DNA of 64,000 bases, taken from Amyelois transitella (Eukaryota > Arthropoda > Insecta > Lepidoptera > Pyralidae). The stretch covers positions 1,798,001-1,862,000 of the forward strand of contig NC_083513.1 of the NCBI RefSeq assembly GCF_032362555.1, written 5' to 3'. The notes beneath the pieces are model-generated. The model ran no database searches, had not been told where the DNA came from, and saw only the letters and a program-made list of their open reading frames with translations. Both the position numbers and the translations under genes were made by a program. Below, one piece after another: positions 562 through 64,000 of this stretch (positions within the stretch are counted from its first letter, which is position 1; every line of letters starts with the position of its first letter).

Positions 562-3500
562 CTACAACGGCGCCGCAGACTCTGCCATGTAGCTCCTGAC
601 GCCGCTGAACATGAAAGGCGGGAACTTGGCCGGCGTGATGTCGAACTGGGTCCGCTGATCGCGCCGCGTGCAGATGGAGTACCCGCGCCACGCCAGCTGG
701 AAGTTGCGCCTGCTCCGCACGTCTCGGAGTTCCAATTCCTGATTACGGAAAAGGAAAATATTTGAAGTCATGTTATACATTCAGTCAGAAAAGTATCGGG
801 AATGGATTATTTATTTGTGGTTCCAAATTCAAATTTTTGTTCTTTTTGTTGTTGTTAGATTGGCACAACTGTTTTCCATTTTGGCGCGGAGTTAGAGTTG
901 CATCTGTTGTTTACATTAAATACAGTGCTATTTTTAGTTATATCATATCTAGTGTGTATTGCTAATTTCATAATGGATAAAAACATCGAACAAAGAGTTT
1001 GTCTTAAATTTTGCATTGCCAATGGAATATCGTGTTCGGAGTCACTGAAAATGTTACAGAAGGCTTACGGTGAATCGACTTTATCAAAAACTCGTGCTTA
1101 TGAGTGGTACAAAGCGTTCAAAAGCGGTCGAGATGTGATGGAAGATTTGCCTCGCTCTGGTAGGCCATCAACGTCTGCAACTGAAGTTAACATCGCAAAA
1201 GTGAAGGAAATAGTGACTGAAAATCCTCATTCAACTTTGAGAGAGATAGCCACCGAACTTTCTGTATCTCACGAGTCGATCCGTACCATTTTAACTAATA
1301 ATTTGGGTATGAAACATGTTGCCGCTCGGCTAGTCCCAAAAGACCTGAATTTTTTTCAAAAACTCAATCGCATGAGAGTCGCTGAGGACATGCTAGAACG
1401 AGTCAATTCCGACCCAACATTCATGAAACGCATTGTTACTGGTGACGAGACGTGGGTTTACGAGTTTGACATGCAAACTAGTCAACAAGCTTCGGAGTGG
1501 CGCCTTCCAACTGAACCGAAACCGAAAAAACCACGCCAAAGTCGTTCAAAAGTCAAAGTCATGTTGACTGTTTTCTTTGACTATCGCGGTGTTGTGCACT
1601 CGGAATTCTTGCCGGAAGGTCGAACGGTAAATAAGGAATATTATTTGAGTGTTATGCGGCGTTTAAGAGAGCAAATCCGACGAAAAAGGCCAGATTTGTG
1701 GAAAGAAAATTCTTGGATTTTGCACCATGATAATGCACCTTCGCACAAGGCCATCATTGTGAACGAATTTTTAACCAAACACTCAACAAATACCATCGAG
1801 CAACCACCATATTCACCAGATATGGCTCCAGCCGACTTTTTTCTTGTTCCTAAACTCAAATTACCACTTCGTGGCACCCGTTTTCAATCGGTAGAAGACA
1901 TAAAAGAGAATTCGCGGCGAGAACTGACCTCAATTCCGGAAACAGCGTTTAAAAAATGTTTAGATGATTGGATTATTCGTTGGTGTAAGTGTATCGTTTC
2001 TAAAGGAGCATATTTTGAAGGTGATAAAATAAATTTGGATGAATAACAAACAGTTTGTGTATTATTGATCTTTTCCTGCTACTTTCTTGACAGAGTAGTA
2101 TATTCATTCGTCATATTTTAAAGTCATGTGCCGTGTGGTTACCGGCACCAATACAAAAAAGAACGGGACCACTCCATCTTTTTTCCCATGGATGTCGTAA
2201 AAGGCGACTAAGGGATTGGTTAACAAACTTGGGATTCTTTTTTAAAGCGATGGGCTAGCAACCTGTCACTATTTGGATCTCAATTCTATCATTAAGCCGA
2301 ATAGCTGAACGTGGCCATTCAGTCTTCTCGGGACTATTGGCTCTGTCTACCCCGTAAGGGATATAGACGTGACCATATGTATGTATGTATGTTTAAAGTC
2401 ATTGGATTGATTCGTATAAACACGTCTATATCCCTTGCGGGGTATTTCGCCACAACGCAACGGAGACAACAGACTTGAAAAGACTGAAAAGCCACGTTCA
2501 GCTGTTTGGCTTAATGAAAGGATTAAGATCAAATAGTGACTTTGGAACAAATGTTTGTTTGTAAACTGTTTATTGCACATTAAAAAGAAATAAAAAAAAA
2601 TACAAAACAGTTATTGGATTAAGAAGGATATGTACAATGGCGGACTTATCCCAATTGGGATATGTTCCAGTCAACGCAAAATATAAAGGAAAATCCATAA
2701 TTAAAAAGGCAGCGCACATAAAAAAATCACTGAAGATGCGTTATAATATCGAATCAATAACGTTATTAAACTAGTATATCTCACCACATGGTAGATCTGG
2801 TCGTGCTGTTCAGGCGCGTCTCGCCTTCTGGAGCGGAACCTGGAGTTGATTGACTGCGGCTGCTTTTTGTCGGGACACTTCTTTATTACTATCACAACCT
2901 GTGGGACAATTCGATAGGTTATTTATTTATTAACTAGCTGACCCGGCAAACGTTGTTTTACCGTTATATTTAATGACATACATACATACATACATACATA
3001 CATATGATCACGTCTATATCCCTTGCGGGGTAGACAGAGCCAACAGTCTTGAAAAGACTGAATGGCCACGTTCAGCTATTTGGCTTAATGATAGAACCGA
3101 GATTCAAATAGTGACAGGTTGCTAGCCCATCGCCTAAAAGAGGAATCCTAAGTTTATAAGCCTATCCCTGACAACGAGGATATTTAATGACGTTTGATCA
3201 GTTATCGAGCGGTGTTCATGCAAATTGTAATAATAATATGTTATATTATGTTATGCATGTGGATGAAGCGAAGGAAGTATGCAGAGATCGTGGCAAGTGG
3301 AAAGAGGTAGTCTCTGCCTACCCCTCCGGGAAAGAGGCGTGATTTTATGTATGTATGTATGTATATTATGTTAAAACAAATGCAACTAAAACTCTTCCTG
3401 TACTAATTTAGAACTTTATATTTACGTTAGTGGCGTGTGGTTCCCGGCACTAATACAAAAAACAATAGGACCACTCCATCTATTTCCCATGGATATCGTA

Positions 3501-6500
3501 AAAGGCGACTACGGGATAGGCTTACAAACTTGGGATTCTTTTTCAGCCGATGGGCTAGCAACCTGTCACCATTTGAATCTCAATTCTATCATTAAGCCCA
3601 ATAGCTGAATATGGCTATTCAGTCTTTTCAAGATTGTTGGCGTTAAGGTTATAGACGTGACCATATGTATATTTACGTTACGTTAAAACAATTACAAAAA
3701 CATTATATACAATCGGGTCTTATATGTTAACAATTGGTCTGTAACTCATCTTACGATCGTCACTTTTTTTATTTTCGTCGTTCTATTTTATTGTAGTTTC
3801 TATTTGTTGCCAGCCTGCTTTGCTGACGATTTGTATGTGTGGTCACGCCGTACAAAAACCTTATCGCTCATTTACTGGTGATTTGCATGTCAATTAGACA
3901 TACCTTGTCTCCCATGAGTCTATAGTGGCCCGCCATGATGCCGAGGCTGGCCTTAGGCTGCCTTGTCTTCAGCTGCGACACGCACGAGGCCGGTTCTTCA
4001 GCAGTTGTCCACATCAGCACTGTACCCTCCGGGAAGAACCTGGTGAAGAACATTACATAACTTCATCATCATTATCATGGTCTTCCGAGTCTTGATTCCG
4101 GTTATTAATTATATATAAATTTATTGGGGCCACCGCCTATGCCAAATACATTTATATATAATTAACTAGCGACCTGCCCCGGCTTCGCGCGGGTATAATT
4201 TATAGACATAAACCTTCCTCAGAAAACCCTCTTTCCAAAATTTCAAACAGGAACAAAATGCGTCCACAACTTTGCGAGATTAGCGCAGACATACAGACAA
4301 GAGAAAATGGAAGACTCAAAAGTAAATAAATCTATACAAATACCTGAGATATCTATAATAATTGATGAGGAACAGCGGCCTATAAAATTGATCCTGGAAT
4401 GAGTTCTCCCCCTGGCGGAGGTACGTCGTCTTGCTGATGTAGCAGCCGTGCAGTAAAAGCCGAGGCCGGGAAATGTACATGTCGCGCCATGATGGGAATC
4501 CCAGGGCGCGGGGGGTGCCGCATTCTACGCCCCATGTTCTGTAAATGTAAACGTGAATGAATGAATGAAATTGCACATGAGGGCAAAACAAAATGGAAGA
4601 AAATAGTAATAAATTTATTTATTTATTTATTTATTAATGGAAGTCTTACAGTCTAATTTATATGATATATAAGTAGTAATAATATATTGCGATTGCTAAT
4701 TACAAGACTTCACAAGTAGAATTGCAACCATGGAAAGATTTACAAAAACTGCGTCATGACATATGTACATAGATAAATGTATAAATTAACATAAAGTAAA
4801 AGAACAGATAAAAGCAACATACTTATTAAATAGCATTGGAACTACATTATAATTTTCCAGTGAATATAATAGTTTTGTATGTTAGTACTATTACAGACTA
4901 GCATAGATAAAGCGAATGAAGTAAGCAGGGATTGCGGCAAGTAGAAAGACGTAATTTCTGCCTTCCCCTCTAAGAAAGTATAGTCACACCTCTTGCTCAG
5001 AGCATAACCATCGCCAATAACTACCAGAACCTTGGCTATGGTAGTTTTTGGCGATGGTTCTTTTATGAATTCTATTTATGAGTATTTTTCTACAGTCATG
5101 TCAATAGCCGCCTGGTGGTTTTATCTAAAGCTCGCGCTAGATGTAGCTGTTAGCCTAAGTACCACTTAGGAGCTATACAACCAGACTACGGTTAACATGA
5201 TAGTAATTCCTGGGAGGCCCCCCCACACCCTGTATACGCACCGCACACACAGGTCGCGGTAGAGCGCCGCACTCCGCGCCCGCCCCCCGCGGCCCCCCAC
5301 CCTGTATACGCACCGCACACACAGGTCGCGGTAGAGCGGCGCACTCCGCGCCCGCCCCCCGCGGCCCCCCCACTGTATACGCACCGCACACACAGGTCGC
5401 GGTAGAGCGGCGCACTCCGCGCCCGCCCCCCGCGGCCCCCCCCCTGTATACGCACCGCACACACAGGTCGCGGTAGAGCGGCGCACTCCGCGCCCGCCCC
5501 CCGCGGCCCCCCCCCTGTATACGCACCGCACACACAGGTCGCGGTAGAGCGGCGCACTCCGCGCCCGCCCCCCGCGGCCCCCCCCCTGTATACGCACCGC
5601 ACACACAGGTCGCGGTAGAGCGGCGCACTCCGCGCCCGCCCCCCGCGGCCCCCCCCCCCTGTATACGCACCGCACACACAGGTCGCGGTAGAGCGGCGCA
5701 CTCCGCGCCCGCCCCCCGCGGCCCCCCCCCCTGTATACGCACCGCACACACAGGTCGCGGTAGAGCGGCGCACTCCGCGCCCGCCCCCCGCGGCCCCCCC
5801 CCCCCCTGTATACGCACCGCACACACAGGTCGCGGTAGAGCGGCGCACTCCGCGCCCGCCCCCCGCGGCCCCCCCCCCCCCTGTATACGCACCGCACACA
5901 CAGGTCGCGGTAGAGCGGCGCGGCGCGCGCCAGCAGCAGCCAGCCGCGGCTGGCGGCGGCGGCGCGCTCCAGCGACCGCGCGTCGCACTCGGCGCCCGCC
6001 ACCCAGCGCAGCACCAGCGACACCACCTCGCTGGGCAGACACGATATGTGCGTCTCCTAAGAGAGAAACCTTCTCATTTCACATGCCAATAAATAAATAT
6101 ATACGGGACAGATTGACACAGATCGAGTTACCCTCGAAGTAAGTTCGAGGTTGTGTTACGAGATACTAACCCGTGGGTTGGGTTAACTAACTACAGGGTT
6201 ACTTTTAATTCAACTGCATAAATTTAACTGTTAAGTGTACTCATCTAAAGGATATTTAAAAACGTTAAAAAAAATATCGGTTCATATTTCATAAAGTACG
6301 AAAAAAAAAAAAGTATTGAAATCCACGATCCTAAATACGTCATATCACCCCGGCCGGCGGAAAAGCGACGCGTAAGATTCAGAGGTCAACGACACAATGC
6401 ATTCAGCTGAGCGATCTCGACAACTCTGTACTTTACTTGATCTTGATACTACTAGCTTATTTTACTTTACTTGATCTTGATACTACTAGCTTATTTCTTT

Positions 6501-9500
6501 GCTTATTTTTCAGACATTTATTTAGATGTTTAGTTTTAAATTCTTTTTGTAGTATTGGTCTTTAATAAAGCGTGTGACGTAGTTTTTGATGGTTTTTTTA
6601 ATGTGAAAATGATGACGTTTAATTTAAATAAAAATAGGGTCAAACAGCTCAGAAGCATGGGTATAGTCTATGTTTAAAATGATGCAGTTGTTTAAATGTC
6701 ACCCTGTATACGAACTCTTACATATTGACCGTAGTGACATTATTAATAAATACCCTTGAAGAACTTAATCTGAAAAAGTATGAGGATCATTGGGGTATGT
6801 CGGCTGTTGTGATATGTCGTATTATAAATATTATAGCTGGCGTCGGAGTGTTTTAGGATCTGACTAAAGCATTTGATTGCGTAGATCATAGAACTCTTCT
6901 GCTCAAGCTCGCTCATTACGGGTTCGACACTATTGCGGTTGAACTAATTAAATCACATCTTAGTAATAGATTACAGACGGTAGATTTAAATAACACAAAA
7001 TCTAAAGCACTAAGGTAAAAATAGGGGTACCGCAAGGTTCCATTTTGGGACCTTTTCTCTTTCTGGTGTATATTAACGACCTGCTATATTAACGAACTGC
7101 CATGATTGAGAAATAGACTGGCATCGTGTTGTTTGCAGTTGTGTTCAGTTGATATGCTAACTCCATACATATGTAAAATCGCGCTTCATTCCGATCCTTG
7201 CTTACTTCTTTCGCTTCAATGACATTCATTTTTTTTTCATACAAGTACATCGGTTTCTGATACACTTAACCTGACCTTCCACCAGGACGTCCTTGATTTG
7301 ATTAAGCAAGGTACGTTCGCCTAGTCCTTCTATGTCAATCAGAGGTAACACAAGGTGTTTAAAAACAAAAATAGCAAAAAAGTGGAGGAAAATAATGACC
7401 TTGGTAGGATGTTCAGGTTCACAAAAAGTTCCCTTCTTGGCCACGAGGCGTTGGATCCGCGCCAGCAGATCTTCACCCTCGATCCATTCCTCATCATCAC
7501 TCTGGTTGTTATTCTCTGTCGGGGCCTCCTCTGGCTCTGATTGTTCTGCAATATGATAAATTAAGTTTATTTCCCCCTTCATTTCCGTGCCGTGTGGTTT
7601 CTGGCACTTTAGAATACTTTTCCCTGTCCTTTCAATGAATGGCGTAAACGGCGACTAATATATATGTAGGATGGTATGTACATGCGATTATCTAGTGTTT
7701 CGCTGAACCGATTTCGATGCAGTTTTCAACAAAGTGTTTATTACAGTTAGGAGTAGGTTTTTTAGAAATTTAACCGACTTTAATAGAAGGAAATTGATTG
7801 GAGGCGATTATTATTACATGTATATATATATATATATATATAAGTGCTTTACTCTCCCTTTCTACAAGGTGATATACATGAGCACAGGATCCTACACTAC
7901 TTATTTCATTCATTCATTCATATTATCACGGCTATATCCCTTGCGGGGTAGACAGTGCCACCAGTCTCGAAATAGTGACATTGCGAGTCTATCGCCTAAA
8001 GGAAGAATCGCAAACCTATCTCTTAGTCGCCTTTAACGACATCCATGGGAAAGAGATGCGAGTGGTCCTATTCTTTCTTTATACTTACTGGTGCCGGGAA
8101 CCACAGACAACTATTTATTATTTTTTGTATCCATCTACCTTCAGGCTCGTCTCCGAGCTCCCCGCTCTCGTACAGCCTGCTCTCCACGTCAGGCAGGATC
8201 TGCATCGCACGCTTGTAATGCTGAATAGCTTCATATAAATCCCCACCACGTTCTAGTTCCACGGCTCGCATGAATAACGATTTCGCCTGTTATTGACAAA
8301 CAATAAAAACATGGATGAAGCGAAGGAAGTATGCAGAGATCATGGCAAGTGGAAAGACGTAGTCTCTGCCTACCCCTCCGGGAAAGAGGCGTGATTTTAT
8401 GTATATATGTGTGTAATAAAAATATATAAGTATACACATACACATACACATACAGTCTACAATCCTTGTTGAGTAGACAGAGTAAACAGTTTGTTTGTTT
8501 GTGATATCTTTATTGCACTGAAATTTACACATACATACATATAATATAGACGTCTATATCCCTTGCGGGGTAGACAGAGCCAACAGTCCTGAAAATACTG
8601 GTAGGCCACCAGCAGCAGCAGCATTAACTATTTGGCTTACTGATAGAATTAACATTCATATCAAGTGACAGGTTGCAAGGCCGAAATAACACAGATACAA
8701 GAAATAGTACATATCGTAATAAACGTAATAAATTCACATTTAGCTGTATGACTTTATTATGTAATTTAAAATTTAGACTCAAACAGTGACATACTCACAA
8801 ACTTTCGCATTTATAATATCAGTAGGATAGTTATGTGCCCTTTAGTCGGAAAAGGAAAAAATTATGATAAATAAAGAACCACAACCTAGCCATAAAGTGT
8901 GAAGGATGATTCTAATTAGATAAATTTAAGTACCTTGTCTTCATCGCTTTGAGGCAGCTTGTGTTCCTCCCTATTTTCCTCCTGTCTTTCTGTGCCAGGA
9001 GTGGGGGTAGACTCCAATTCTCGCTGCCATTGCTGGCGGAACGCCGACAGCTCATCCTGGGGTTAATTTGGGTAAAATCAAGAATGGAGTCACTTAAACT
9101 AAAATAGCACACCTCCTTACTAATTAAAACCGCGCCTTGAGGTGACCAGCACTTTAAAATAAGACTGCTCCTTCTCTTGCCCATGGTTGGCGTAAAACTC
9201 CACGAAAGTGTGACTATTTACTACACGTGAGTTAGGTAAGTATATCAATTGAAGAAATATGGATGTAAAATAATTTAATCCACCTCTCAATTTGAATATT
9301 ACGAAAGATTATTAACTTCTTAGGAAATTTATAAACTTGTGGTTTTTAATTTAGGCTTCTAATCTGACCACAAGGTATGGGAAAGAATCATGCTTATTAT
9401 AAAATAATGTAACCTTGTCTTCATCGCTTTGAGACATCTTGTGTTCATCCCTATTTTCCTCCTCTCTTTCTGTGTCTGTAGTGGGGGTAGACTCCAACTC

Positions 9501-10429
9501 CTGCTGCCATTGCTGGCGGAATGCTGACAGCTCATCCTGGGGTTCCTTTAGAGCAGGTAAAACCAACATATCACACGACCAATAAAATTAGTATATATAT
9601 ATTAAAAATCATCCATTACAGACTGACTTTTAGCGGCTAGGCATGAATTGTACCATAGCCATGAGTATATATACTTTATTGTTATAATTAAGGTGTGCTA
9701 AAACCTTTAACCTTCAAGGGACAATCAAGGATAAGATGCCTAATGCACATAAATTAAGACATTGTGAGCTACAGTGTGGTCATACAAATGTGTGATAATT
9801 TTTTATTTTAGTAAGTACCTCCAAATCAATATTGGCCAGGCCTTCACTGACTTCAGCCACAGGTGAAGAGGAGTCTTCAGGCTCCTCACATTCTCCACTA
9901 GGGCCATCTGTAGAACCTACACTTGATGCCTAAAGAAAGATATATTTTTTTGAGTCAAATCTAAAAGATTTAGTATATAACTAGCTGACCCGGCAAATTG
10001 TTTTGCCATATAAATAATACTGAACAACAATTGATCACTTATCGACCAGTGATGAAAAATGATTAAATTACTAAAATGGCTATTAAAAAATAGTTGTGGT
10101 GATAAAAAGGAAAAAATTTTGCGTTGTATGTATTTTTTATTGCAACATAATAAAATATATAAAGAAATAGAATAATAAAAAACATAAAAAATGTCTAAAA
10201 ATTAATAAAAAAAACACTCATGATGGCCTCTTCACATACCAAAATGAGGCATCACACTAGAATGTTTATATACCTACAATTACCTAGCCAGATAATTAGG
10301 GAACATTATATTTATAGAAAAGTGGGTAGCTGTGTTATCAGACTTAAATCATTTTTGGCAACTTCCTAAGATAAGTGAATTCAGGCAGTGTAAATCAAAA
10401 GATACTAATTGAATCCAAGATCTTACCAT
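562..10429 (-). CDS. FBXO9: F-box only protein 9 (FBXO9), 11 coding exons
   Basis: Substrate-binding subunit of an SCF (SKP1-CUL1-F-box) ubiquitin ligase; in mammals FBXO9 is linked to turnover of mTOR-pathway adaptors. Coding exons, 5' to 3' on the minus strand: 10427-10429 (ATG only), 9819-9929, 9414-9536, 8934-9056, 8139-8286, 7400-7545, 5893-6056, 4344-4538, 3904-4039, 2785-2898, 562-738. Phases agree at every junction: 1440 bases, 479 residues with both 41-residue exons, 438 with one; the human protein is about 447. Visible parts: acidic N-terminus; TPR/MIT-like helices (AKSLFMRAVELERGGDLYEA); F-box exon (THISCLPSEVVSLVLRWV); the family-typical GCYISKTTYLRQGENSF and YYRYLRFFPEGTVLMWTT; and C-terminal GVRSYMAESAAPL, matching the human ending in RSYTAFSERPL style. 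Odd points: the start codon ends at a splice donor, one exon is duplicated, and a minisatellite carries copies of the exon-7 donor. The last intron holds a mariner. Very confident of family; the exon-1 ATG is inferred from ATG|GTAAGA. Confidence 0.93.
778..2098 (+). mobile_element. mariner DNA transposon, apparently complete
   Basis: A 1.3 kb element in the last FBXO9 intron, opposite in strand to the gene. It is flanked by TA dinucleotides (776-777 and 2099-2100), the expected mariner target duplication. Imperfect terminal inverted repeats of about 25 bp share a TCA-GAAAGTA-C-GGAA pattern at both ends. It encloses an uninterrupted transposase. Length, target site and gene content all fit the mariner family. 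Exact repeat ends are read by eye and could be off by a few bases. Confidence 0.88.
973..2046 (+). CDS. mariner transposase, DD34D, open reading frame intact
   Basis: Cut-and-paste transposase of 357 residues. The N-terminal half has paired helix-turn-helix features, including the linker LPRSGRPSTS typical of mariner and SETMAR-like proteins. The catalytic triad is visible: Asp in TGDETWVYEFD, Asp in HHDNAPSHKA, and Asp in SPDMAPADFF, with 34 residues between the last two (DD34D). The start chosen is the ATG before DKNIEQRV, which matches the usual start of this lineage; the frame is open for 25 codons further upstream but without an ATG. No stop or frameshift, so it may be young or still active. 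Confidence 0.93.
   Translation: MDKNIEQRVCLKFCIANGISCSESLKMLQKAYGESTLSKTRAYEWYKAFKSGRDVMEDLPRSGRPSTSATEVNIAKVKEIVTENPHSTLREIATELSVSHESIRTILTNNLGMKHVAARLVPKDLNFFQKLNRMRVAEDMLERVNSDPTFMKRIVTGDETWVYEFDMQTSQQASEWRLPTEPKPKKPRQSRSKVKVMLTVFFDYRGVVHSEFLPEGRTVNKEYYLSVMRRLREQIRRKRPDLWKENSWILHHDNAPSHKAIIVNEFLTKHSTNTIEQPPYSPDMAPADFFLVPKLKLPLRGTRFQSVEDIKENSRRELTSIPETAFKKCLDDWIIRWCKCIVSKGAYFEGDKINLDE
2128..2391 (+). repeat. SINE-A copy with target-site duplication
   Basis: Full copy from gccgtgtggttaccgg to a tatgtatgtatg tail. Direct repeats tttaaagtcat at 2117-2127 and 2392-2402 flank it, showing insertion by target-primed reverse transcription. It begins 29 bp beyond the mariner end. A short inverted fragment of the same family follows at about 2420-2540. 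Confidence 0.85.
2540..2690 (-). mobile_element. 3' end of a LINE, fragment
   Basis: On the minus strand this reads gactggaacatatcccaattgg, then gtccgccattgtac, then a cttcttaatccaa stretch and a long AT-rich 3' end. The same arrangement recurs on the plus strand at 43440-43572 and, diverged, at 43130-43275, so it is the 3' untranslated end of one non-LTR retrotransposon family. Confidence 0.6.
2976..3171 (-). repeat. SINE-A copy, truncated
   Basis: Inverted copy starting with a (catacata)n tail and reading through tcacgtctatatcccttgcg to the cctatccct block; the head is missing. Immediately before it, about 2934-2970, is a fragment reading ctagctgacccggcaaacg, seen again at 9980 and belonging to another lepidopteran repeat. 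Confidence 0.75.
3255..3365 (+). repeat. SINE-B copy, fragment
   Basis: Second repeat family (SINE-B): ggatgaagcgaaggaagtatg, then gtggcaagtggaaag, gtagtctctgcctaccc and a gtatgtatgtat tail. Other fragments lie near 4905-4995, 8310-8420, 11600-11715, 18180-18295 (minus), 21765-21855 (minus), 24560-24695, 38520-38615 (minus), 44045-44190, 53810-53955 and 63090-63170. Confidence 0.7.
3431..3668 (+). repeat. SINE-A copy with target-site duplication
   Basis: Copy with a shortened tail. Direct repeats atatttacgtta at 3418-3429 and 3669-3680 flank it. Confidence 0.82.
5006..5059. repeat. inverted repeat, 21-bp arms
   Basis: Arms at 5006-5026 and 5039-5059 are reverse complements with one mismatch (core aaccatcgccaa) around a 12-base loop. 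It sits in the FBXO9 intron between exons 7 and 8, just downstream (in transcription) of the minisatellite. It could be a hairpin-forming remnant of a MITE; no function can be read from it. Confidence 0.7.
5216..5925 (-). repeat. GC-rich minisatellite carrying ten copies of the FBXO9 exon-7 splice donor
   Basis: Ten units of 71-75 bp. The conserved marker tgtatac occurs at 5231, 5303, 5374, 5445, 5516, 5587, 5660, 5732, 5807 and 5882. On the coding strand each unit holds the end of FBXO9 exon 7 (residues APLYRDLCV plus CG), the donor GTGCGTATAC, and a G-run followed by a CGCGGGGGGC tract. Only the copy joined to the full exon (donor at 5891-5892) follows the conserved F-box sequence. Length variation is confined to the G-run. 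Long open frames across the array are a by-product of its low stop content. Confidence 0.93.
6087..6180 (+). repeat. tRNA-related SINE fragment
   Basis: Sequence tatacgggacagattgacac and a ctcgaagtaagttcgagg hairpin-like block, shared with 17325-17470 and 48000-48240. The copy at 17325 continues into gggacctccggtgtc and ccgctgcgccacag, resembling the B-box end of a tRNA-derived SINE. It lies just upstream of FBXO9 exon 7. Confidence 0.6.
6850..7092 (+). pseudogene. non-LTR retrotransposon reverse transcriptase fragment
   Basis: Broken reverse transcriptase coding sequence. Segments read DLTKAFDCVDHRTLLLKLAH and, after a frameshift and a stop, GVPQGSILGP with LVYINDL, the classic motifs of Jockey/CR1-type LINEs. 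The catalytic YADD region is missing. It is an old fragment in the FBXO9 intron between exons 6 and 7, antisense to the gene. Confidence 0.85.
7165..7330 (-). repeat. SINE-B fragment overlapping an AT-rich intron
   Basis: Minus-strand copy showing acgtcctggtggaaggtcag, a block also seen near 11610 and 44045, plus the cgaaagaagtaagc region. Just right of it is FBXO9 exon 6 (7400-7545). Confidence 0.5.
7920..8105 (-). repeat. SINE-A copy, internally shortened
   Basis: Inverted copy ending in gtgccgggaaccacag, with part of the middle deleted. It sits within 35 bases of the FBXO9 exon-5 donor. A (TA)n tract precedes it at 7818-7843. A further truncated inverted copy lies at 8541-8676. Confidence 0.72.
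8934..9536 (-). repeat. tandem duplication of a 41-residue FBXO9 exon
   Basis: Two copies of one 123-bp exon, 9414-9536 and 8934-9056, 480 bp apart. Both have AG acceptors and GT donors, both are phase 0 at both ends, and both are open. They encode variants of DELSAFRQQWQ-ELESTP...SDEDK: one reads PTTDTEREEENRDEHKMSQ and the other PTPGTERQEENREEHKLPQ. Differences are few and mostly conservative. Because the exon is symmetric, including one or both copies keeps the frame. Confidence 0.9.
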
Positions 10430-14100: not shown

Positions 14101-14255
14101 AACAGTGTCTGGACATCACTCACGCCGTCAGCTGTCTTCCAAGCGGGTTTCTCTGGGGGGAGAGAATTGGGGGGACGAAGGTTGCGGCCATAGCTACCAC
14201 TTCTTCCGTTATTGGCATAGCGTTGTATTTTGCTAAAAAGCGTTTGCTCAAATAG
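11197..14255 (+). CDS. Pex11c: peroxisomal membrane protein 11C (Pex11c), first tandem copy
   Basis: Peroxin of the PEX11 gamma type, a peroxisomal membrane protein that helps elongate and divide peroxisomes. Exons 11197-11256, 11993-12157, 12804-12991, 13973-14255; 696 bases, 231 residues, phases consistent (human PEX11G is 241). Motifs typical of the family: N-terminal ICELLDSYNGRDK, then ARLMLRLFDDIPMIRHTYNYG, then ANAVDQLFLPVEKACWLFEV, and the C-terminal THAVSCLPSGFLWG, equivalent to the human NAVHWLPRGVLWAG. A hydrophobic segment near the end (KVAAIATTSSVIGIALYF) fits a membrane anchor, followed by a basic tail KKRLLK. SINE-A debris ends close to the acceptors of exons 2 and 3. A poly(A) signal candidate aataaa lies near 14819. 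Confidence 0.92.
12480..12752 (+). repeat. interspersed repeat ending in gcgggcacagctagta
   Basis: Runs from aatattataaagctgaata to cggacgaagtcgcgggcaca and ctagta, inside Pex11c intron 2. This is an abundant lepidopteran repeat pattern of uncertain class. Related fragments occur at 27515-27715 (starting with cgcccgcgacttcgtccgc), 36290-36510 (ending gcggggacagctagta), 44500-44610 and 56600-56730. Confidence 0.65.
13041..13298 (+). repeat. SINE-A copy
   Basis: Copy with a decayed head and a tatgtatgtatgta tail in Pex11c intron 3, sense to the gene. An inverted, truncated copy follows at 13737-13890. Confidence 0.78.
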
Positions 14256-19866: not shown

Positions 19867-19921
19867 ATGTCATAAACTGTAAAACTCAAATCAAGTTTCC
19901 AAATATTACAGTTTATGACAT
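19867..19921. repeat. perfect 16-bp inverted repeat
   Basis: atgtcataaactgtaa and its reverse complement separated by 23 bases. This is probably a small MITE remnant; no coding or splice function. Confidence 0.7.
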
Positions 19922-20399
19922 CCTTGGTTCCAATGAGTTCCAAACTAAATTTTTAATCGTAAAATATAAATATAATAAAAGCGCGATGCAACTCTCAACA
20001 TCACTAGCTATGCCCCCCGGGTTCGCTCATGTGGGAATTCAAAATACTTTGTTTCTTTACACGATGGTCTGCACTTGCAGCGACCGCTTGTAAAACAATC
20101 AGTAGCCCAATTTGAAAAAAAATACTGTGTAATTATTTGGAAAAATAAAATAGGCAAAGCGCCATCTATTGAATATCAGGGGTACTAAAATAAGCAAATC
20201 ATCGAATTTAGAATAATAAGTCGAAAGCGCTGAAAACTCTGAACTTCAACAATATTTCTTGGAAGCATTTTCCTAAACTCCCACAGGAACTAAAGAATAC
20301 GTTTGATACGGAGCGAAGCCGCAAGCAAAGTATTGTACGAAAAGATATAGATTATAATAACGTAAATATATTTTTCTAGCATCTTTAAAATAGCCTTCA

Positions 20400-20485
20400 T
20401 TCTTCGATTTACCATAGAATTTTCTAATTCGACAGCCAGCCTCAACTACTTCTTAAAGTTTACCTCCTGAACCGAAAACCAACGA
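20400..20485 (-). pseudogene. relic copy of the EPG5 terminal exon
   Basis: Resembles 20545-20625, the end of the EPG5 coding sequence. Shared words include tctaattcgacagcca (tctagttcgacagcca in the real exon) and tacctcctgaac versus acacctcctgagc. It lies downstream of the EPG5 stop codon and has diverged by many substitutions, so it is non-coding. Confidence 0.75.
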
Positions 20486-20542
20486 AATTTGTTTTAGTAT
20501 TAAGATAACCTAATTTTTTTATACTTTTTCAGTCTTCCCAAT

Positions 20543-23500
20543 TCACTTTCCCATAGATTTCTCTAGTTCGACAGCCATCTCCAATTCCTCTTTGAAGTAC
20601 ACCTCCTGAGCTGGATGGAACCTCATGGCTAGCCTCGGCACCAAAGACACACTAGGTTTCCTCCCCCAGGCGATGGCGTCCCCTATTATAGCGGGGTTGA
20701 CGGAACTGCACGCGGATTCGAACCCGCGAATGGATGATTCGTTGTTCGGCGATAGTACGCATAGCGCTAAGTTGCAGAGTATTCTGTGCCTGTAATTAAA
20801 ATAATTTAATACATAATACATAAATCACGCCTCTTTTCCGAAGGGGTAAGCAGAGACCACATCTTTCCACTTGCCACGATCCCTGCATACTTCTTTCGCT
20901 TCATCCACATTCATAACTCACTTCATGCAAGCTCGTCGGTATCGGGTATATCGGTATATCGGCTCTTGACCTGACCTTTTGCTAGAACGTCTCCGAGTTG
21001 ATCATGGTACATTCACACTACCTTTGTTTATTTGCTTAGTCAACCTGCTTTCATTCATCCTCTCGACATTACCAAACAAAATACTAATTTAACTGAGTTT
21101 AAGATTTCCCTTTCTATATTATCAAGGTTTTTTTTTCTATTGGCTTCCATGCCTCTTTTAATGACAATTTTGCATTTAAAGTTTCATTTGGAAAGTCAAA
21201 TTAGACACTGCTGTTTCTTTTGTTATACATACATACATACAACATACATACATAAAATCATGCCTCTTTCCCTTAGAAATCTAATCCTTCTCTTTTTTTT
21301 TTTTGTTATTTGCTTGCTAATTAATTTTGGTAGAAGGTTGTCATCTATCTTATCCACATGGATGTCTTAAAAAAGACTAATTAGCCTTACTTACTTAACT
21401 ATATTAGCAAAAAGAATCCAGAATTGGCTACAGAAAAAAATAATAAGAAGTCAAAATCTAGTATTTTTTAAGAAAATGAAACAGGGGCGCCCTCTACCGA
21501 TATCTTTTCACATTACATAGTATTGAATAGTAACTATCTACTCACTCAGCCGTCGGCACCGTCGCTTGCTGTCTGACCAGCCTCAACAGATTCCTCCTGG
21601 TCTCGGCCCAGCGGCTCAGCAAGGCAGTGGCGGCCGCCGTACACTCGCGGGGCTCCGGGTTCGAGTCCGTCACGAGAGAGCAGGCCAGCGCTGTTCTGCA
21701 CGCGAGGCAGATCCATGTCGATATTATCACACTGTTTTCTATGCTGTGAGAGAAACAATATACTTACATAAAATCACGCCTCTTTTCTGGAGGAGTAGGC
21801 AGAGACTAGGTATATTTTTCCACTTGCCACGATCCCTGTACATTTCTTTTGTTTCATATACATATACATATAGTCACGTCTATATTTTTTGCCAACAATG
21901 AGCCAACAGTCTTGAAAATACTTAAAGATCATGTTCAGCTGTATGCCTTTATGATAGAACTGAGATTCAAATAGCAACAGGTTTCTAGCCCATTGATTAC
22001 AAGAAGAATCTCAGGTTTAATAAACTTTCCTTAGTCGCCTTTTACTACACTTGCATGAGAAGATATGAAATGGTTCTATTGTAAAGCGCCGGAAACCACA
22101 CGGCACTGAAATAAATAAAATGAAATACAGTGCAAACTCACAAGTTGATATCGGCGGCGAGCAGCGCCAACAAGGCGGCGCGCAGCGAGCGCGGGCCGTG
22201 CGCGCGCGCGGCCGCGGCGCCGTACGCGGCGTGCGCGCGCGCGCGGGCGCACAGCGGCGCCGCGCCCGCCCGCGCGCTGCGCGCCCACGCCTGCCGGATC
22301 TCCGCCCAGCCCGCGCTCTCTGATCAACGAATTCTTATTATATATATATGTTTCTTTTACTAAATAAATATTGTAATATATACCTTTAGGATGATAGGTA
22401 ATTATGTGCAATGCCAACTTAGGAATCCTGCTTCAGTCAGTGGCAAGTAAAAGTCCAATTGCAGTTCACGGTGTTTATTTCCCAATACACAATTACACTG
22501 GTAGCACAAGCACAACCAGTTGAAGAATAGAGGGTCGGAAGGAGAATAGAGAAAGTTCCCAACACACAATAAAAGGTGGAAGAAAAAACAGTCACAAAGC
22601 GTAGTGTTAACAATGCGGCGCGTAAGCCGAGAATATTCTAGCGGAACAGCGGCGGAGCGCATGCGCGCAACATGCGCAAACGCACGTTTGCCTCTCAGAC
22701 AAATTTCGACTGGCGAGCGCGCGGACAACGGTCGCCGCAGGAGTGGGCATAAAGAGCTACGCCCCGTGTATGGTTCCACTGCATTGTTTTAATGACGATA
22801 CGGTAAAAGTGAGATCGTATTAAGTTATATATATTATAATTTATTTTTAGTGATATTTAGGTACTAGTTTATGAGTTGTATATTTTTATATGTGTTAGGT
22901 ATAATTTATTAAGTCAATTGTATTTGTGTATATGTGTCTACATACATATCAATAAACATAACGTTAGTTTTGCGTTTTCAAATACATAGTTTTAATTTGC
23001 GTTTTCGCATAGTCAGAGAGCTGGCTCACCCACCAGGCGAGGACATGTTGTCCTAGCTGACGACGAGACACTGACCTTGTGTGTTCAGCAGCGCTCGCGC
23101 AGCCGCGTCGGCCACTGCGGCGAAGGGCTCCAGGGCCGTGAGAGAGCTGACACTCCACACGCACGCAGACACTAATCGAGGGGGACATGTTGACACCCAT
23201 TTCTGCCATACCTACCAAAAAAAATACACATTAAAACAATGAAAAAAAAAGAAAAAATATCAAATTAAGAAATTATCTCGAATGACCGTCTTTTTAAACA
23301 TAATCATTTATGCCTTGAAAATTAAATTTGGAAATTTCAAATTTTACTTATTAGAAAGAGACATATTATATGTCTCTTACTATTTACACTGATTTTAAGA
23401 AAAATATCAAACTGAAATCACTTTGATACTCTATAATCCCGTCAGAATCTAGTCCGCATCGTCGATCCGTTGTCATCTAAGAAATCCTGCGAATCCATGA

Positions 23501-44500: not shown

Positions 44501-47500
44501 GTCGCAGCGTGATGTTATATAGCCTAAAACCTTCCTCGATAAATGGTCTATTCAACGCAAAAAGAATTTTTCAATTCGAACGAGTAGTTCCTGAGATTAT
44601 AGCGCGTTCAAACAAACAAATCATATACACAATCATATAGATCATATACACGTACCGTGTGGTTCCCGGCACCAATACAAAAAAAGAATAGGACCACTCC
44701 ATCTCTTTCCCTTGGATGTCGTAAAAGGCGACTAAGGAATAGGCTTACAAACTTGGCTTTTTTTAGGCGATGGGTTAACAACCTGTCACTATTTGAATCT
44801 CAATTCTATCATTAAGCCAAATAGCTGAAGCGTGGCCATGCAGTCTTCTCAAGACTGTTAGCTCTGTCTACCACGCAAGGGATATAGACGTGACCATATG
44901 TATGTATCATATACACCATATACAAAACGGTGACTCACCAATGCTGAGTGTAGGTGAGACTGGTCATCAGCTGCTGAAGCATGGAGGGGCAACGTTGGGA
45001 CCAGTCCTCCAACACCACCAACAGCTCCCCAGTGTTGGGCCGCCATTTGTCAACACTGATGTACTTCAGGCATGAAGCCTCTAGGGTTTCTACTGTTGAA
45101 CACAAAATAGTTAACGATAAATAAAAAAATTGTCATATATATAACTAGAAATTGTATATATATAACTATAATAAAAAAATGTTATATGACAATTTTTAAT
45201 TTTCTTTTTTTAATTTCACTTATTTTGTTCCGCCGCTACTTCTACACATGCGCTTTGGAAGCGGTAGTGCGGTTTGAATCTCAATTCTATCATTAAGCCA
45301 AACAACTAAATATAGGTCTTTTCGAGACTTTTGGCTCTGTCTTTCCGGCAAGGGATATAGTGATTATATGTATATAAGCTTTAAATAAAAATCATTTTAA
45401 TCATTTGTTATTTAAGACAGTCAAAATGCTAAATTTATGTGTCTTGCAAACATATACATACAAATGAGACCGAGATGGTACAAAGGCGGACTTATTTATA
45501 AAACAATCTCTTCAAGTCAAAGTTTGAGTGAAAGGTAATAATGTAAATAAATATGTATATGTCACAGTCAAAACTCTTAACCAGTCAAAAGTACTATTGA
45601 CTAGCACTTAACCAGTCAAAAGTACTATTGACTAGCAAAATCAGTTAAAAGTACTTTTGACCGTTGCTGCATGAAGCAGGTACGCGCTCTTACTAACAAA
45701 TAAGTAGTCGTATTCTTTTCGGACATTGTTCTCAGACGCGACATGCATGTGACAGGTTCGAAGGGTGATCGCGAGCGCAGCGAGCGATCACCCTTCGAGT
45801 GTTAGGTATTTTTTTTGTAAACCACCCAAAAAGCTTTTTTGTTGCTAGTCAAAAGTACTTTTGACTGGTTAAGAGTTTTGACTGCAACATATATATATTT
45901 ACCCAGGCTCATGTCCGCAATGAGATGTAACGCGATGGTGTAGAGGTAAGGGTGAGCGTCCAAAAGGTCCGGCAATCTGTTCCGAGCGGCCGCTTCGCAA
46001 CCACCTTTGCAGGGAACCGACTTCTTCTTAAGACCAGTCTACAAATACATAAATATATTTTGAATAAATTAAAAATAAATGCCGTGTGGTTCCCGGCACC
46101 AATAGGAAAAACGAATAGGACCATTCCATGTCTTTCCCATGGACGTCGTAAAAGGCGACTAAGGGATAGGCTTATAAATTTGAGATTCTTCTTTTAGGCG
46201 ATTAGCTAGCAACCTGTCACTATTTGAATCTCAATTCTTTCTTTAAGCCAAATAGCTGAACGGGGCCTATCAGTCTTTTCAAGACTGTTGGCTCTGTCTT
46301 CCCCGCAAGAGATATAGACGTGATCATATATATGTATGTAAAAATAAATATAATATAATACTACCAAAACGTGCAGGTTTCCACGTGATATTTTTACTCA
46401 CCGTAAGAGTATCGGTTTGCACTCAAACTAATGTAGGTACATAACTCGAAGAAGAGTAAACGAACCTGTGCCTGCTATTTTATCGGACACCTCTCTACAC
46501 TTTATGATTTCTATACAACATACTTATTTTTTATAAAAGCTTCGAATTATAAAGAGAAGAAACACAGGTCCCAGGTTTAAACCTGGGACCACAAGACAAC
46601 ATACCAACTCCAGGACCAACATCAAGTCCTGGTCAAACCGAGCAAGCTCGTGCTCATTGTACCGTACTAGAGCTGCTTTTGATATTATTTCTATACAAGC
46701 TTCCTATTATAAATACATACATACATACATATAGTCACGTCTATATCCCTTGCGGGGTAGACAGAACCAACAGTCTGAAAGACTGATAAGCAACGTTCAG
46801 TTCGCCTAGCCGCTCGCCCAGTGGTAGGTTGCTAACCCACTGCCTAAAAGAAGAATCCCTATAAGCCTATCCCTTAATCGCCTTTCAAGACATCCATGGG
46901 AAAGAGATGGGATGGTCTTTCTTTTATTGGTGCCGGAAACCACACGGCATAGTATAATAAAGAAAAAAAAACACACTGGATTCGAACCTGGGATCTCAAG
47001 ACAACATACCTGCATCAAGAACTCTAGAACGATCCGAGCAAGCTCGTGCTCGTTACACCGCAATACAGCCGCTTTGGATACTATTTCTACACGCGCCTCG
47101 CAGCTCAATGGCGGGAGGCATACATCCAAGATGTTAACTTGATGTGGAGTCGTGTCTGAAACAAATTGTCTATTTTAATACATACATACATAATATGTAC
47201 TCGATCATATTATGATCACGTCTATATCCCTAGCGGGGTAGACAGAGCCACCAGTCTTGAAAAGACTGATAGGCCACGCTCAGCTGTTTGGCTTAGTGAT
47301 AGAATTGAGATTCAAATAGTGACAGGTTGCTAGCCCATCGCCTAAAAGAGGAATCCCAAGTTTATAAGCCTATACCTTACGGCACCTATCTATTTTAATA
47401 TGATTATTAATATTTATAATAATTAATGTGCCATGTGGTTCCTGGTACCAGTACAAAAAATAATAGGACCACTTCATCTCTTTCCCATGGATGTCGTAGA

Positions 47501-50500
47501 AGGCGACTAAAGGATAGGCTTACAATCTTGGGATTCTTTTTTTAGGCGATGGGCTAGCGACCTGTCACTATTTGAATCACAATTCTATCATTAAGCCAAA
47601 TAGCTGAAGTTGGCTGATTAGTCTTTTCAAGACTGTTGGCTCTGTCTACCCCACAAGGGACGTGACCATATGTATGTATGATAATTAATAATCATATTAG
47701 AATAGTAGTGTGTGAAATAAATTGTCTATTTTAATATGATTATTAATTATTATAATTATTAAAATAGACAATTTATTTCAGACACGACGGGTAGGTGGTG
47801 TAAGGTGAGAATGTAACCAGATGTACCGCCAAGAGGAAATGTTGTAGTAGATAGGTTCGGAGCAACCCACACACATATTTGGTTAGAAAAATAATAACGT
47901 CATAGACGAAGAAAAAAAGGCGGACTGAGTTTACTATAGGGCAAAATGAAGCACCGATAGTATGCCGTAGCGTCAGTGCAAAAGAAGCGCTATGATGTTA
48001 CAAATAAATAAATACCTATATACGGGACATTGAAGAAAATGCTGCAGTGCTTTGGAAGCGACAGTAAACTTAGTTTTAAGTTATTTATTTGACATCAACC
48101 AAAAAATATTACAATTATTAAGTGATATTGAAATGTCTTATAATACCTAATCAATAAAAAATTTGAAATAACAGATTGAATTAGGGTCGAAGAAGTTCGA
48201 GGCTTGTGTACCGAGATACTAACTTATCGATACTATATAAGTATTTTAACTTTAGTACTTTATTATTGTAACTGCTTGCTCATAACAAGTTTTACATTAG
48301 TTATTAAGCTTAAGCAACTGCGCATACGCGTTTAGGATGCTAAGTTGGAACAATTTTAGTTATTAAGAAACCTTGTATCTTATTAGTTAGTGTCTGTTGT
48401 GTTGCCTTATAAATAAATAAAAAATAAATACGAGTTGTAAATATAATAGTCAATTCAAACAAACCAACCGTGAAGTTGAAACATCAGTTCCATGCAGAAT
48501 TCTCTAGCAGTGTTCTCAGTGAGCAACGTCGTCGGTATACGATGTAGGTCGTGTTGACCAAACAAGGCGAGCCCCGCTGCGAAACTAGCTTCCAGCTCGG
48601 GCGGTATGCGTGTGCGCATCTCTGCTGAGTACGATGACCTGCAACAAATATACATGAAATCATTTTGATTAAAATATTAACGATTATTCAATATTTGTTC
48701 TCAATACCATTTAACTAGCCGTGTGGTTCCCGGCACCAATACAAAAAAGAATAGGACCACTCCATCTCTTTCCCATGGATGTCGTAAAAGGCGACTAAGG
48801 GATAGGCTTACAAACTTGGGATTCTTTTTTAGGCGATGGGCCAGCAACCTGTCACTATTTGAATCTCAATTTTATCATTAAGCCAAATAGCTGAACGTGG
48901 CCATTCAGTCCTTTCAAGACTGTTGGCTCTGTCTACCCCGCAAGGGATATAGACGTGAACATATGTATGTATGTATGTACCATTTAACTAGTATTATTGG
49001 AATAAGCTTTGGCGTCAACACTGATATGGGAGATAAAGAGCAACTTTTAATTTAGATATAACATGAAATGGAGATTCATCACTATGTTAATCTTAACAAT
49101 AGAAAAAGAAATGAGTTGAAATGAAATACGAACTTATTTAGTAGGTGTAGCCCGGCCAATCCCTGCAAGGCACTTTCCGTTATCCTCCTCAAAATTTTGT
49201 GCAATCTGTGGTAATGCGCGTGCGCATCTCTAGCGCTCTGAAACGTTGCTAAGAGTGCGCGCACGCCGCTACTAGCGCGGAGTACCCCGTGCCCCCCAGT
49301 GGGGTCATGGAAGTCTTGTTCGCGGGCTTTGGTTATGTCCTGTAAAATTATATTAACAAAATGAGCGAGTTAACGAAAAAAATGGTATAAATAAAAAGAA
49401 AGTATTTTGTTTTTCAAGTAAAAAAAAATGTGTATTTGGTTGAGTATCAAACGTGAAGCGCCTTGAAAACTGGACAACACTTTCATGCGGGCGATGTCGA
49501 AATAATTGTAGTCAAACAACAATCTTGTAATGGAAAATAAAGAGTCAAAACATAAGAAACAGGATTTTTTCAGACGGAAAATATTGCTCGTTTCGAGATA
49601 AATACTCACTGCCTGTGTCAGCAGCAGATTGGCCACAAGCGATCGCAAAGGAATGGCTCGGAGCAACGACAAGAGGTCTCTCTCCCTCAGAGCGCCGTCA
49701 TCGACTGCTCCGCCACCGCCGCTCGCGTGGACCTCCTCCCACGCTTCTTCTATGTCTGTTCCAAATTCAAATTATTAATTCTTGAATTCTTAAACACACG
49801 GCCGCTTGCGTTGTTCTGTTCCAAATTCGAAATTCAAATAGTTCTAATTAAATCTTGGAAAAAACAAGACTCACCCTCAGTACACTCGACAGCGGAGTCG
49901 GGCGCGGGGCGCGCCAACATGGCGGCGAGCACGGCGAGTGCGCGCGCGCCGGACACGCGGTCTGACACGTTAAGCTGAATAGCTCGTGAGGCCCAGCGCA
50001 CTGAACGACTTTGTCTGCAATTAACACAAAATTTATCTATAGAAGTAGGTAGAGCATTGATACTCTTTTAAGTTACACCTGCACAGAAGTCAAATGATTG
50101 TGTGACGCGAAAAGCTTTGAGCCTGTCAGCCTGTCTTATCTATCAGTGCGTGCCTTTTGAACCTACGAACTGAACGTGTCGGTTATTATGAGCAAGATAG
50201 CAGTTTTCGGATTTTTAGTTTAATGTGCTTGAAATATGGTCGTTATTTTATTGAGTTTACATTCGGTATGATTAGAATAAGACCGATGCGACTTATAAAA
50301 GTGGTTGTTCTCTAGCCTAAAATTTAAAATTAATATGTAACATACTTCAAAAATTAACAAATAAAAAAATAAATTATGGACAACTTTCAAACCAACAACC
50401 TGCAAACAGCTTATGTCTTCACCTCACATAGCGACCCTGCCAGGAAGCCTTACAGCGCTACATAACTGCAAGTCTATTTAATATTTTATTACATATTTGT

Positions 50501-61826: not shown

Positions 61827-62925
61827 ATGGCAACAGAAGTGAGCTCATCCCCGTCAGCGATGCCCCAGCTACAGTCGGTGCAGAAAGCCATGGCACTCCC
61901 CACAGTGGGAGCAGCTGTGGGCCAGTTTGGAGCCATCTATACAAAAGTCAAGGGTAAGTTCATCTACTTTATAACTATAAATTGTAACATTACTGTATGT
62001 GTATGTATAAGCATTTTGGATAATTTTGAAAGTATTTTGTCAGTTAATTTTATGCATGTAAAAAAGAATTCCTTAATTTGATCTAGGTATAAAACAACAA
62101 AAGTACAAGAACTTTAAAATAGATTCTTATTAGATTACAGTCAAATGAGAATAAAACATATTTCCAGTAAGACTTTCTTCATAACATTTCTACTGGATAA
62201 TAAAACAAAATAAAAAGCTTATGGGTATATCTATCCTATTTGCTTCATCATTCATACATTAAATAAGTAAATAAATGCTTTACTATTAATTAAAGGAGTA
62301 GTAAAATCAGTACAAAGGCAGACTCATCCCTTTGTGAGATCTCTGTGTGGCTCCTGCTGTAGCCGTGTGGTTCCCTGCACCAATAGAAAAAAAATAGGAC
62401 AACTCCATTCTTTCTTTTTCGCACTTTCCCATGGATGTGGTAAAAGACAACTTAGGGATAAGCTTATATACTTGGGATTCTTCTTTTAAGCAATGGGCTA
62501 GCAACCTGTCACTATTTGAATCTCAATTCTATCTTTAATTCAAACAGCTGAACATGGTCTATCAGTATTTTCAAGACTGTTGGCTCTGTCTTCCCCGCAA
62601 GGGATATAGACATGATTAGATGTTATGTTATTGGGATCTCTTCCAGCCAACCTAATATTAAAACTTTAGGTTAACGAACTTATTTCTCACAGGTGTACAC
62701 TCCATCCTCGACTGGGCGCTATCCACAGCTGAAGCCAGCGTGACCCTCGCCGCCACCACAGCCGCCCCCTATGTGGCCACACCCTTAGCCGCCGGAGACG
62801 CGAGGATCGCAGCTGCCATAGACGCTTTGGAGAAGAGGGTGCCCCTCGTGACAGAAGAACCTAAAGTCATTATAGAGACCACCAAACAGGCAGTCATGTC
62901 GAGATTAACGCCTCATGTAACGAAG
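61827..62925 (+). CDS. perilipin (lipid storage droplet protein), 5' part, gene runs off the window
   Basis: Lipid-droplet coat protein that controls access of lipases to stored triglyceride, important in the fat body. Two exons are visible: 61827-61953 and 62693-62925, 120 residues, phases consistent. The PAT domain is recognisable: QSVQKAMALPTVGAAVGQFG, IYTKVKG, ILDWALSTAEASVTLA, then ALEKRVPLVTEEPKVIIETT, matching the order in Drosophila Lsd-1 and Lsd-2 (…LP.V…Y.KVK…WALSTAE…LE.KVP.V). The ATG directly follows an acceptor (atcacag), so a 5' UTR intron is likely. Remaining exons must lie beyond 64000. Which of the two insect perilipin types this is cannot be decided from 120 residues. A SINE-A copy occupies intron 1. 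Confidence 0.88.
62362..62622 (+). repeat. SINE-A copy in perilipin intron 1
   Basis: Diverged copy from gccgtgtggttccctgcacc to gacatgattagatg, ending about 70 bases before the exon-2 acceptor. Confidence 0.8.
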
Positions 62926-64000
62926 GTAAGTTAATTGATTCAGAACTAAGCTTCTTATTTGACCACACCCTTAGCCGCTGGAGACGCAAAGATAGCTGCT
63001 TTAAACGCTTTGGAGAAGTGAAAGTCTTGTGTGTGAAAGGCCCAGTTTAGGTGAAGAGGCAGAAGAGCCTTATATCATCATAGTGATCACCTTGTGGAAT
63101 GAAGAGAAAGAAGTATGTAGAGATCACGGCAAGTGGAAAGATGTAGTCTCTGCCTATCCCTCTTCACTTGCGTATCAGACGATTATCACAGATAATTGGA
63201 GGTAAACAAATTAATTTAGATAAGGAATTATTGACACTTATGTTAAAGGCATCAAAATTCCTGCAGCAGCTATCATAATCACATGATTTCAGGCTAGATT
63301 AAGATAACGTTTTTAGTGCAGATTATGAAGTACATACACACACACACACACACTTATGCGGTGGACAGGGTCAGTGGTCACAAGACTCGAAGTCACGTGG
63401 TCACATGCTTAAATGAATTTAAAGATGTGACGATGATCGAGATGTTATGTAAAAAAATGCAACGATTATAAATTATTCCCCTGATAAAATGTTATTAAAA
63501 TTGCCTTTATATCAACTTCACATAGCCTTTCCAATAGTTTTTGTGTTTAGGCTTAGATTATACCTTTTTCTTTTTCATTTTGTAACGAAAGTAATTTTGT
63601 TATCAAATAGAATTCAACATTAACTTAGCACAGGAAGGCTTTCTATATTGTTGCAATTGTTATAACAAGGTCATATAAGTAAGGTTAAATTAGTTACATG
63701 ATTTAACTGATAATTACCGACGCGTTATTAGCAATTCAAATCGTCAGACAATATTTCATAAACGTGTGTGTTAATATTTGAAAACAATTCAATTGTTCAT
63801 TGTTATAGAGGTTATGACGGCACAGTCTCAATACGAGACAGTGTTGGAAGCACAATAAATAATATTGTTTCTATATATATATTCACCTACCGCCCAAACC
63901 GCTGGGTCTAGAGATTAAAATTTGCTATGTAGATTTGCCTTATGTGGTCGAGGGGTGCACTGAGAGATGATTTTACGAAATAAAATTATCGGCATTTTTC
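62926..64000. other. perilipin intron 2, partial
   Basis: Holds a decayed copy of perilipin exon 2 (62960-63020), a SINE-B fragment (63090-63170) and a (CA)n microsatellite at 63333-63352. I found no further perilipin exon before the window ends. Confidence 0.6.
62960..63020 (+). pseudogene. relic copy of perilipin exon 2
   Basis: ccacacccttagccgctgga compares with ccacacccttagccgccgga in the working exon (62777 onward), and acgctttggagaagtg with acgctttggagaagag. It starts only 35 bases after the donor of exon 2 and runs into a stop (aagtga). It cannot serve as an in-frame exon. Confidence 0.85.

Follow-up and report, generated by a model that had tools for sequence, protein, structure and literature searches.

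Tandem duplication beside splice junctions is familiar from several settings. In two cases from the intron-gain literature, ATP2A1 and the potato RdRp gene, coding-exon sequence near AG|GT was duplicated in tandem; in potato, the segment copied was an intron-exon structure that already existed (PMC4974935, PMC3443670). The repeats described here are likewise tandem and close to AG|GT of coding exons; they differ in that each unit holds an existing donor and the start of its intron, the copies are intronic and a new intron is unneeded. Tandem exon duplication can also yield mutually exclusive exons (PMC6071210). Compared with such clusters, one exon of our locus (exon 17 of an EPG5-like gene) is similar in that whole exons of near-equal length are separated by a spacer too short to be spliced; however, its copies 2-6 are frameshifted and thus not interchangeable in frame, and most other cases in the locus lack an acceptor. 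Insect Mhc is said to be a further case of tandem exon duplication giving mutually exclusive exons.

The choice among identical donors has been debated since the early duplicated-site experiments. Lang and Spritz (1983), Kuhne (1983), and Reed and Maniatis (1986) reportedly performed such experiments in the debate over 5'-to-3' scanning. Our arrays likewise place identical competing donors in one transcript, but they are natural, contain up to ten donors and are read from surviving duplications. Intronic minisatellites, or VNTRs, resemble them in unit length, tandem growth and high identity, whereas the unit here straddles the exon-intron junction. A small search of open papers found no report of donor/acceptor polarity in exon-junction tandem repeats.

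The window, i.e., the whole 64,000-nucleotide stretch of the Amyelois transitella genome analysed here, contains 46 modelled exons on its minus strand: 37 belong to a gene that we take to be EPG5 (hereafter EPG5-like), and nine to FBXO9, with a duplicated exon counted twice. The FBXO9 identity is backed by a Pfam FBO_C match. Two long pieces of the EPG5-like model had no Pfam match, and the first of these also had no PDB match. A plus-strand gene, which we take to be perilipin, has a weak Pfam match (E 0.0075, below the Pfam cut-off). The exon-chain model was anchored on peptides from the window's reading frames and then trimmed by eye: one doubtful exon was removed, FBXO9 exon ends were trimmed, and the end of EPG5-like exon 17 was placed by eye. 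After masking dispersed repeats, we aligned each exon, extended by 30 nt on either side, to 2.5 kb on each side, and counted copies at E<1e-6; matches of 15-20 bp at E 0.001-0.01 (exons 3, 6, 7, 8, and 23), found on both sides, were left uncounted. TRF was run besides self-BLAST, which overlooked arrays of period 31-53 bp. An Rfam search of the window returned zero matches.

A local copy on the 3' side was found for nine of the 46 exons (EPG5-like 9, 17, 24, 27, 30, 32, and 37; FBXO9 2 and 6), and a match on the 5' side for two (FBXO9 exon 3 and EPG5-like exon 9). The direction is the same on both strands, as the original prediction held, since 3'-side copies occur in the minus-strand genes and in plus-strand perilipin. 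The features are as follows.

5221..5921, minus strand: array of 9.7 units of 71 bp, end of the FBXO9 F-box exon (TRF, sequence, exon model)
8920..9544, minus strand: duplicated whole FBXO9 exon (self-alignment, sequence)
20408..20609, minus strand: end of EPG5-like exon 37 (terminal) and its copy in the 3' flank (alignment)
23453..24124, minus strand: EPG5-like exon 32 and copy of its interior (alignment)
25156..26244, minus strand: array of 3.4 units of 328 bp, end of EPG5-like exon 30 (TRF, sequence, alignment)
28195..28505, minus strand: donor repeats and interior copy of EPG5-like exon 27 (alignment, sequence)
29955..30875, minus strand: array of 9.5 units of 97 bp, end of EPG5-like exon 24 (TRF, sequence)
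38784..39841, minus strand: array of 6.2 units of 172 bp, whole EPG5-like exon 17 (TRF, sequence, alignment)
46580..47092, minus strand: donor end of EPG5-like exon 9 and an older copy (alignment)
47691..47800, strand not given: inverted-repeat element (alignment)
62770..63018, plus strand: perilipin exon interior and its 3'-side copy (self-alignment)

Both copies predicted in FBXO9 proved real. The first is an exon pair (9536-9414 and 9056-8934), each member 123 nt long, open and ending in GACAAG|GT, within blocks (9544-9399 and 9064-8920) that share 89% identity. The members differ at 12 nucleotides, affecting three codons synonymously and seven nonsynonymously. The 5'-side match of exon 3 is this same pair viewed from its second member. 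The second is the 71-bp array at the F-box exon (6056-5893), whose unit joins the exon 3' end to GTGTGCG|GTGCGT and about 42 nt of intron. Nine downstream donors, spaced 71-75 bp apart, match the working donor exactly. Reading past the first donor stays open for 724 nt, six of the nine later donors are in frame, and none of the three minus-strand frames is closed across the array; Gly/Arg-rich length variants of FBXO9, made through the later in-frame donors, are therefore possible on the reading frame. The last modelled FBXO9 intron also holds an uninterrupted mariner-like transposase frame of 395 aa (859-2043, plus strand; Pfam Transposase_1 and HTH_48).

In the EPG5-like gene, the predicted copies of exons 9 and 17 were recovered, and those ascribed to exons 25, 29, 32, and 39 correspond to our exons 24, 27, 30, and 37, all of which carry copies by alignment; the predicted "exon 26" did not hold up, as neither of the exons that follow the exon 24 array (29771-29646 and 29194-29033) has a copy at E<0.01 within 2.5 kb. 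Exon 17 (39833-39688) is present in six copies, each with an acceptor and a donor, the first of 146 nt and the following five of 145 nt, separated by gaps of 26-27 nt. An insect intron would not fit into gaps of this size, so no more than one copy could enter the message at a time. A 1-nt deletion common to copies 2-6 shifts the frame and leads to a stop after five codons in the model phase; of the two whole-exon duplications, this one thus has frameshifted extra copies, whereas both FBXO9 copies are open. Exon 24 (31010-30801) contributes to its unit the exon 3' end, CTCAGCAAG|GTACAC and about 22 nt of intron; eight further copies of the donor follow at 97 bp with 0 mismatches in 14 nt, and an in-frame stop lies 15 nt beyond the first donor. 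The exon 30 (26284-26123) unit consists of the exon 3' end, GACCAG|GTATCT and about 203 nt of intron, and among its three extra copies the donor is exact in one, carries 2 mismatches in 14 nt in another, and is lost in the nearest (GACCATTTATC). Judging by reading frame and phase, the working copy appears clear for exons 17, 24, and 30.

EPG5-like exon 27 (28565-28388) has decayed 23-bp repeats, made up of roughly 8 bases of exon plus 15 of intron, across its donor CAGAGAGAG|GTAACT, together with a copy of an interior piece at 28244-28195 (84%); the earliest later donor, at 23 nt, precedes the read-through stop yet shifts the frame. Exon 9 (47155-47010) has a 72% copy at 46696-46580 that spans the exon 3' end and the donor, whose position now reads GAGTTG|GTATGTTGTC, and no near-identical donor copy lies close by. 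Its 5'-side match, 33 bp at the acceptor (47736-47704), was rejected as a tandem copy, as it sits in the inverted-repeat element and matches at 97% in inverted orientation and 91% in direct orientation. Exon 32 (24160-24093) has a small interior copy of 26 bp (23478-23453, 96%), and the end of exon 37 is copied at 20470-20408 (78%). In perilipin, the interior (62770-62835) of exon 62693-62925 is copied at 62956-63018 (83%), as predicted; the copy begins 30 nt past the exon end AACGAAG|GTAAGT, the detected part excludes the donor, and no near-identical donor copy lies close by.

The typical repeat unit is therefore an exon 3' end, a donor and the start of an intron. Four arrays are clear minisatellites (71 bp x9.7, 97 x9.5, 172 x6.2, and 328 x3.4 by TRF), whose units follow one another head to tail, measure tens to hundreds of bp and are highly identical; the prediction of three was right as to their presence and short in number, and the decayed 23-bp array comes in addition. 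Of the 22 TRF rows of period at least 20, five straddle donors, all five inside the window. Donor copies are identical in young arrays, and some are lost among older copies. In the three arrays measured, the donor junction is internal to the unit, at a variable distance from its ends (29 exon and 42 intron nt in FBXO9, 75 and 22 in exon 24, 122 and 203 in exon 30), so the proposed duplication process favouring AG|GT junctions is not supported. We then read eleven cases, from the window and beyond, through the first donor. A stop followed within 1-72 nt in eight (EPG5-like 17, 24, 27, and 30, perilipin, and the outside loci L056, L069, and L072a), and later in EPG5-like 9 (201 nt), L072b (301 nt) and FBXO9 (724 nt). 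The early stop in 8/11 cases implies choice of the first donor.

A partial copy lies 3' of its exon if it spans the donor and 5' if it spans the acceptor, so that the polarity is an excess of donor over acceptor duplications. We consider it likely, though far from assured, that ordinary tandem duplication filtered by splicing explains this excess. Short tandem duplications would strike exons as they strike introns. Where one spans the donor, the exon body would keep its own donor and the extra copies, at first equally good donors, would fall downstream, leaving the gene working while the first, upstream donor is chosen. Where one spans the acceptor, an extra acceptor would come to lie upstream and be reached first, adding junk and usually a frameshift, and such alleles would be lost. 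The 3' polarity would then be a selective filter that reads out a 5'-to-3' (first-come or exon-definition) choice among identical sites, and tolerated arrays would grow and shrink as minisatellites, and decay. We infer the duplication mechanism, the selection and the use of the first donor from what can be read directly: the copies, their polarity, the identical donors of young arrays, the read-through stops and the frameshift in the exon 17 copies. The prediction had offered unbiased duplication followed by loss of whichever copy is spliced second; its outline is supported, but the filter would act on the splice site duplicated and not on the copy spliced second. A win of the upstream donor is compatible with either exon definition or first-come commitment. 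It is at odds with the in vitro proximity rule, reportedly from Reed and Maniatis (1986), under which the downstream donor would be preferred; that rule counts against our explanation. Moreover, where units hold little intron (22 nt), an equivalent acceptor duplication might be harmless, which also argues against the filter.

To look beyond the window, we scanned outside exons in the same manner, namely 117 HMM-located exon matches in 70 loci and five in one further locus (L080), 122 in all; these include about 30 kinase loci that are apparently intronless, some overlapping, so the true intron-flanked total is smaller. Loci were chosen regardless of repeats, except two fetched on suspicion and kept in the 122 (L070 and L071), while L069, fetched for its array, was left out of the rate. 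Donor-spanning copies were found in three of the 122 exons, two in a CCT gene (L072; 89%/83% and 93%) and one in a helicase (L056), where the nearer of two decayed copies (72-76%) keeps CATAGG|GTGAGT and the farther has lost it. Acceptor-spanning copies counted among the 122 exons were zero. Matches on the 5' side came from L021, where a kinase paralogue lies in tandem, from the intronic array of L058, and from L080, where a 33-bp match is ambiguous. The kinase paralogue, and another on the 3' side (L026), were removed before the count. The L080 match lies just ahead of the HMM match, at an ambiguous exon border, and was not counted. Also not counted as donor-spanning were an interior piece about 1 kb downstream (L077; 57 bp, 77%) and a 40-bp 3' match just beyond the HMM match (L078). 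A kinase pair (L070, C4:7923162-7923874) and a kinesin (L071, C4:7067781-7068464), suspected from the match tables, have no duplication in their sequence. The L058 array (1735-2671) is a 52-bp x18 intronic minisatellite on the acceptor side of a helicase exon match; it ends no more than about 10 bp from the match and contains no exon sequence, as the filter predicts. In L072, a run of about two dozen C (~7635-7660) lies immediately ahead of a CCT exon acceptor.

We further read by eye the match tables of 11 Pfam families, with at least 790 matches listed; the E limit was 0.001 in the first five tables and 0.1 in the remainder, and several scored only part of the candidates. Four exon-end arrays appeared among the matches listed. 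The helicase array on C12 (L069) shows eight matches, mostly 195 bp apart, and its sequence contains the exon end and donor CCAG|GTGTGT. The other three are seen by match coordinates only: two extra exon-end copies about 150 bp apart in a myosin (C28), four at 129 bp in a cullin (C1), and one in an adaptin (C21), with the myosin and cullin copies scoring weakly (E 0.01-0.02). Among the matches listed in the 11 families, no clear exon-start array was present, three overlapping pairs aside (helicase C12:1015338-1016553, cullin C1:7167980-7168719, and CCT C21:3364976-3365698). Matches at C12:10167187-10168555, which we take to be the known alternative exons of Mhc, were set aside. Inspection by eye places a portion of a dispersed, SINE-like repeat inside the L069 unit; this repeat was probably inserted before the array grew.

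Altogether, partial copies outside the window numbered seven on the donor side (two helicases, the CCT gene twice, myosin, cullin, and adaptin; three of the seven by coordinates only) and zero on the acceptor side (two-sided sign test, p=0.016; two of the seven cases lie in one gene, and the tests were chosen after the pattern was seen). Adding the window's five partial cases (EPG5-like 9, 24, 27, and 30, and FBXO9 6) gives 12:1, with the inverted-repeat case scored as acceptor-side (p=0.003). Because the pattern was the reason for choosing the window, the fair figure is that from outside it.

The strongest rival, which we nonetheless consider doubtful, is a mutational bias at exon 3' ends or nascent donors, for instance transcription- or R-loop-linked slippage, that would create the polarity with no selection needed. 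Density speaks for it: local copies are about fourfold more frequent among exons (10/46) than among exon-sized intronic segments outside exon-derived arrays (12/220), which is more than chance. The 12 segments come from just two places, and their matches are without polarity (five 3'-side and eight 5'-side). An earlier control that included the arrays was discarded (81 of 300 segments, 50 with a 3' match and 75 with a 5' match). The exon excess exceeds what a pure filter would lead one to expect; because constraint on one copy would slow the decay of exon pairs, about a factor of two of it may be explained in this way, and mutational bias is possibly part of it. The units are also short and amplified many times, as such slippage would have it. 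However, the unit ends at no fixed place in the three measured arrays, GC content does not set the array exons apart (0.61 in these seven versus 0.56 in the remaining 39, p=0.34), and composition would be expected to act symmetrically at donor and acceptor.

Less likely still, copies might be retained for use, as decoy donors or as poison exons, adjusting expression by way of unproductive splicing or U1 recruitment. The intact donor contexts of young copies would suit such a role, as would the exon 17 copies, which keep both splice sites and whose spacing precludes splicing them together, and the FBXO9 array with its long open frame and mostly in-frame donors. Yet recent array growth predicts high identity equally well, and the donor is lost in the farther L056 copy and in the nearest exon 30 copy.

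That the pattern reflects an assembly artefact or the chance choice of a striking window seems to us very unlikely. Density does differ, at 7/46 exons in the window and 3/122 outside (Fisher's exact test, p=0.005), so the window is not typical, and the predicted bias extends elsewhere in direction (7:0) but at lower density. Nevertheless, the same anatomy recurs in genes on other contigs, the shared differences among copies (the 1-nt deletion in five of them, a varying poly-G) are hardly of a kind that assembly software would make up, and an assembly of 327 Mb in 33 contigs points to long reads. Least probable of all is that intron birth by AGGT tandem duplication (the Rogers model), as the original prediction had entertained, is under way here: tandem AG|GT-bearing units do adjoin exons, but the model needs an exonic unit, the units here contain an existing donor and, in the three measured, 22-203 nt of intron, and between exon 17 copies an intron would have just 26-27 nt available.

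Should splicing-filtered duplication operate across the lineage, which we put forward tentatively and hold more loosely than the explanation itself, the polarity would preserve, across the genome, a fossil record of how splice sites are chosen. Among up to ten identical donors the first would win, and likewise among several acceptors, so that arrays of donors would persist while those of acceptors would be lost. The surviving arrays would then be natural competition experiments that measure the choice rule, and steady raw material for new isoforms. If the polarity is genome-wide, any assembled genome with RNA-seq could be used to measure the donor-choice rule, and exon-end minisatellites would form a recognisable class, one that may be mistaken for exons in gene prediction and variant calling. 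A genome-wide polarity would further help in deciding whether tandem duplications close to splice sites owe their origin to mutation or to selection.

Several neighbouring features were recorded in passing. Two tandem plus-strand genes (11957-14252 and 17032-17970) are presumably PEX11-like; a 52-aa piece of them had no Pfam match. At 54175-55836 (plus strand) lies an uninterrupted Tigger/pogo-like transposase frame of 554 aa (Pfam DDE_1, HTH_Tnp_Tc5, and CENP-B_N), possibly a young element or a domesticated gene. Elsewhere in the genome, C15:3085936-3163673 holds at least 16 partial RRM matches on one strand, mostly about 4.4 kb apart, forming a large tandem array of an RRM-bearing unit.
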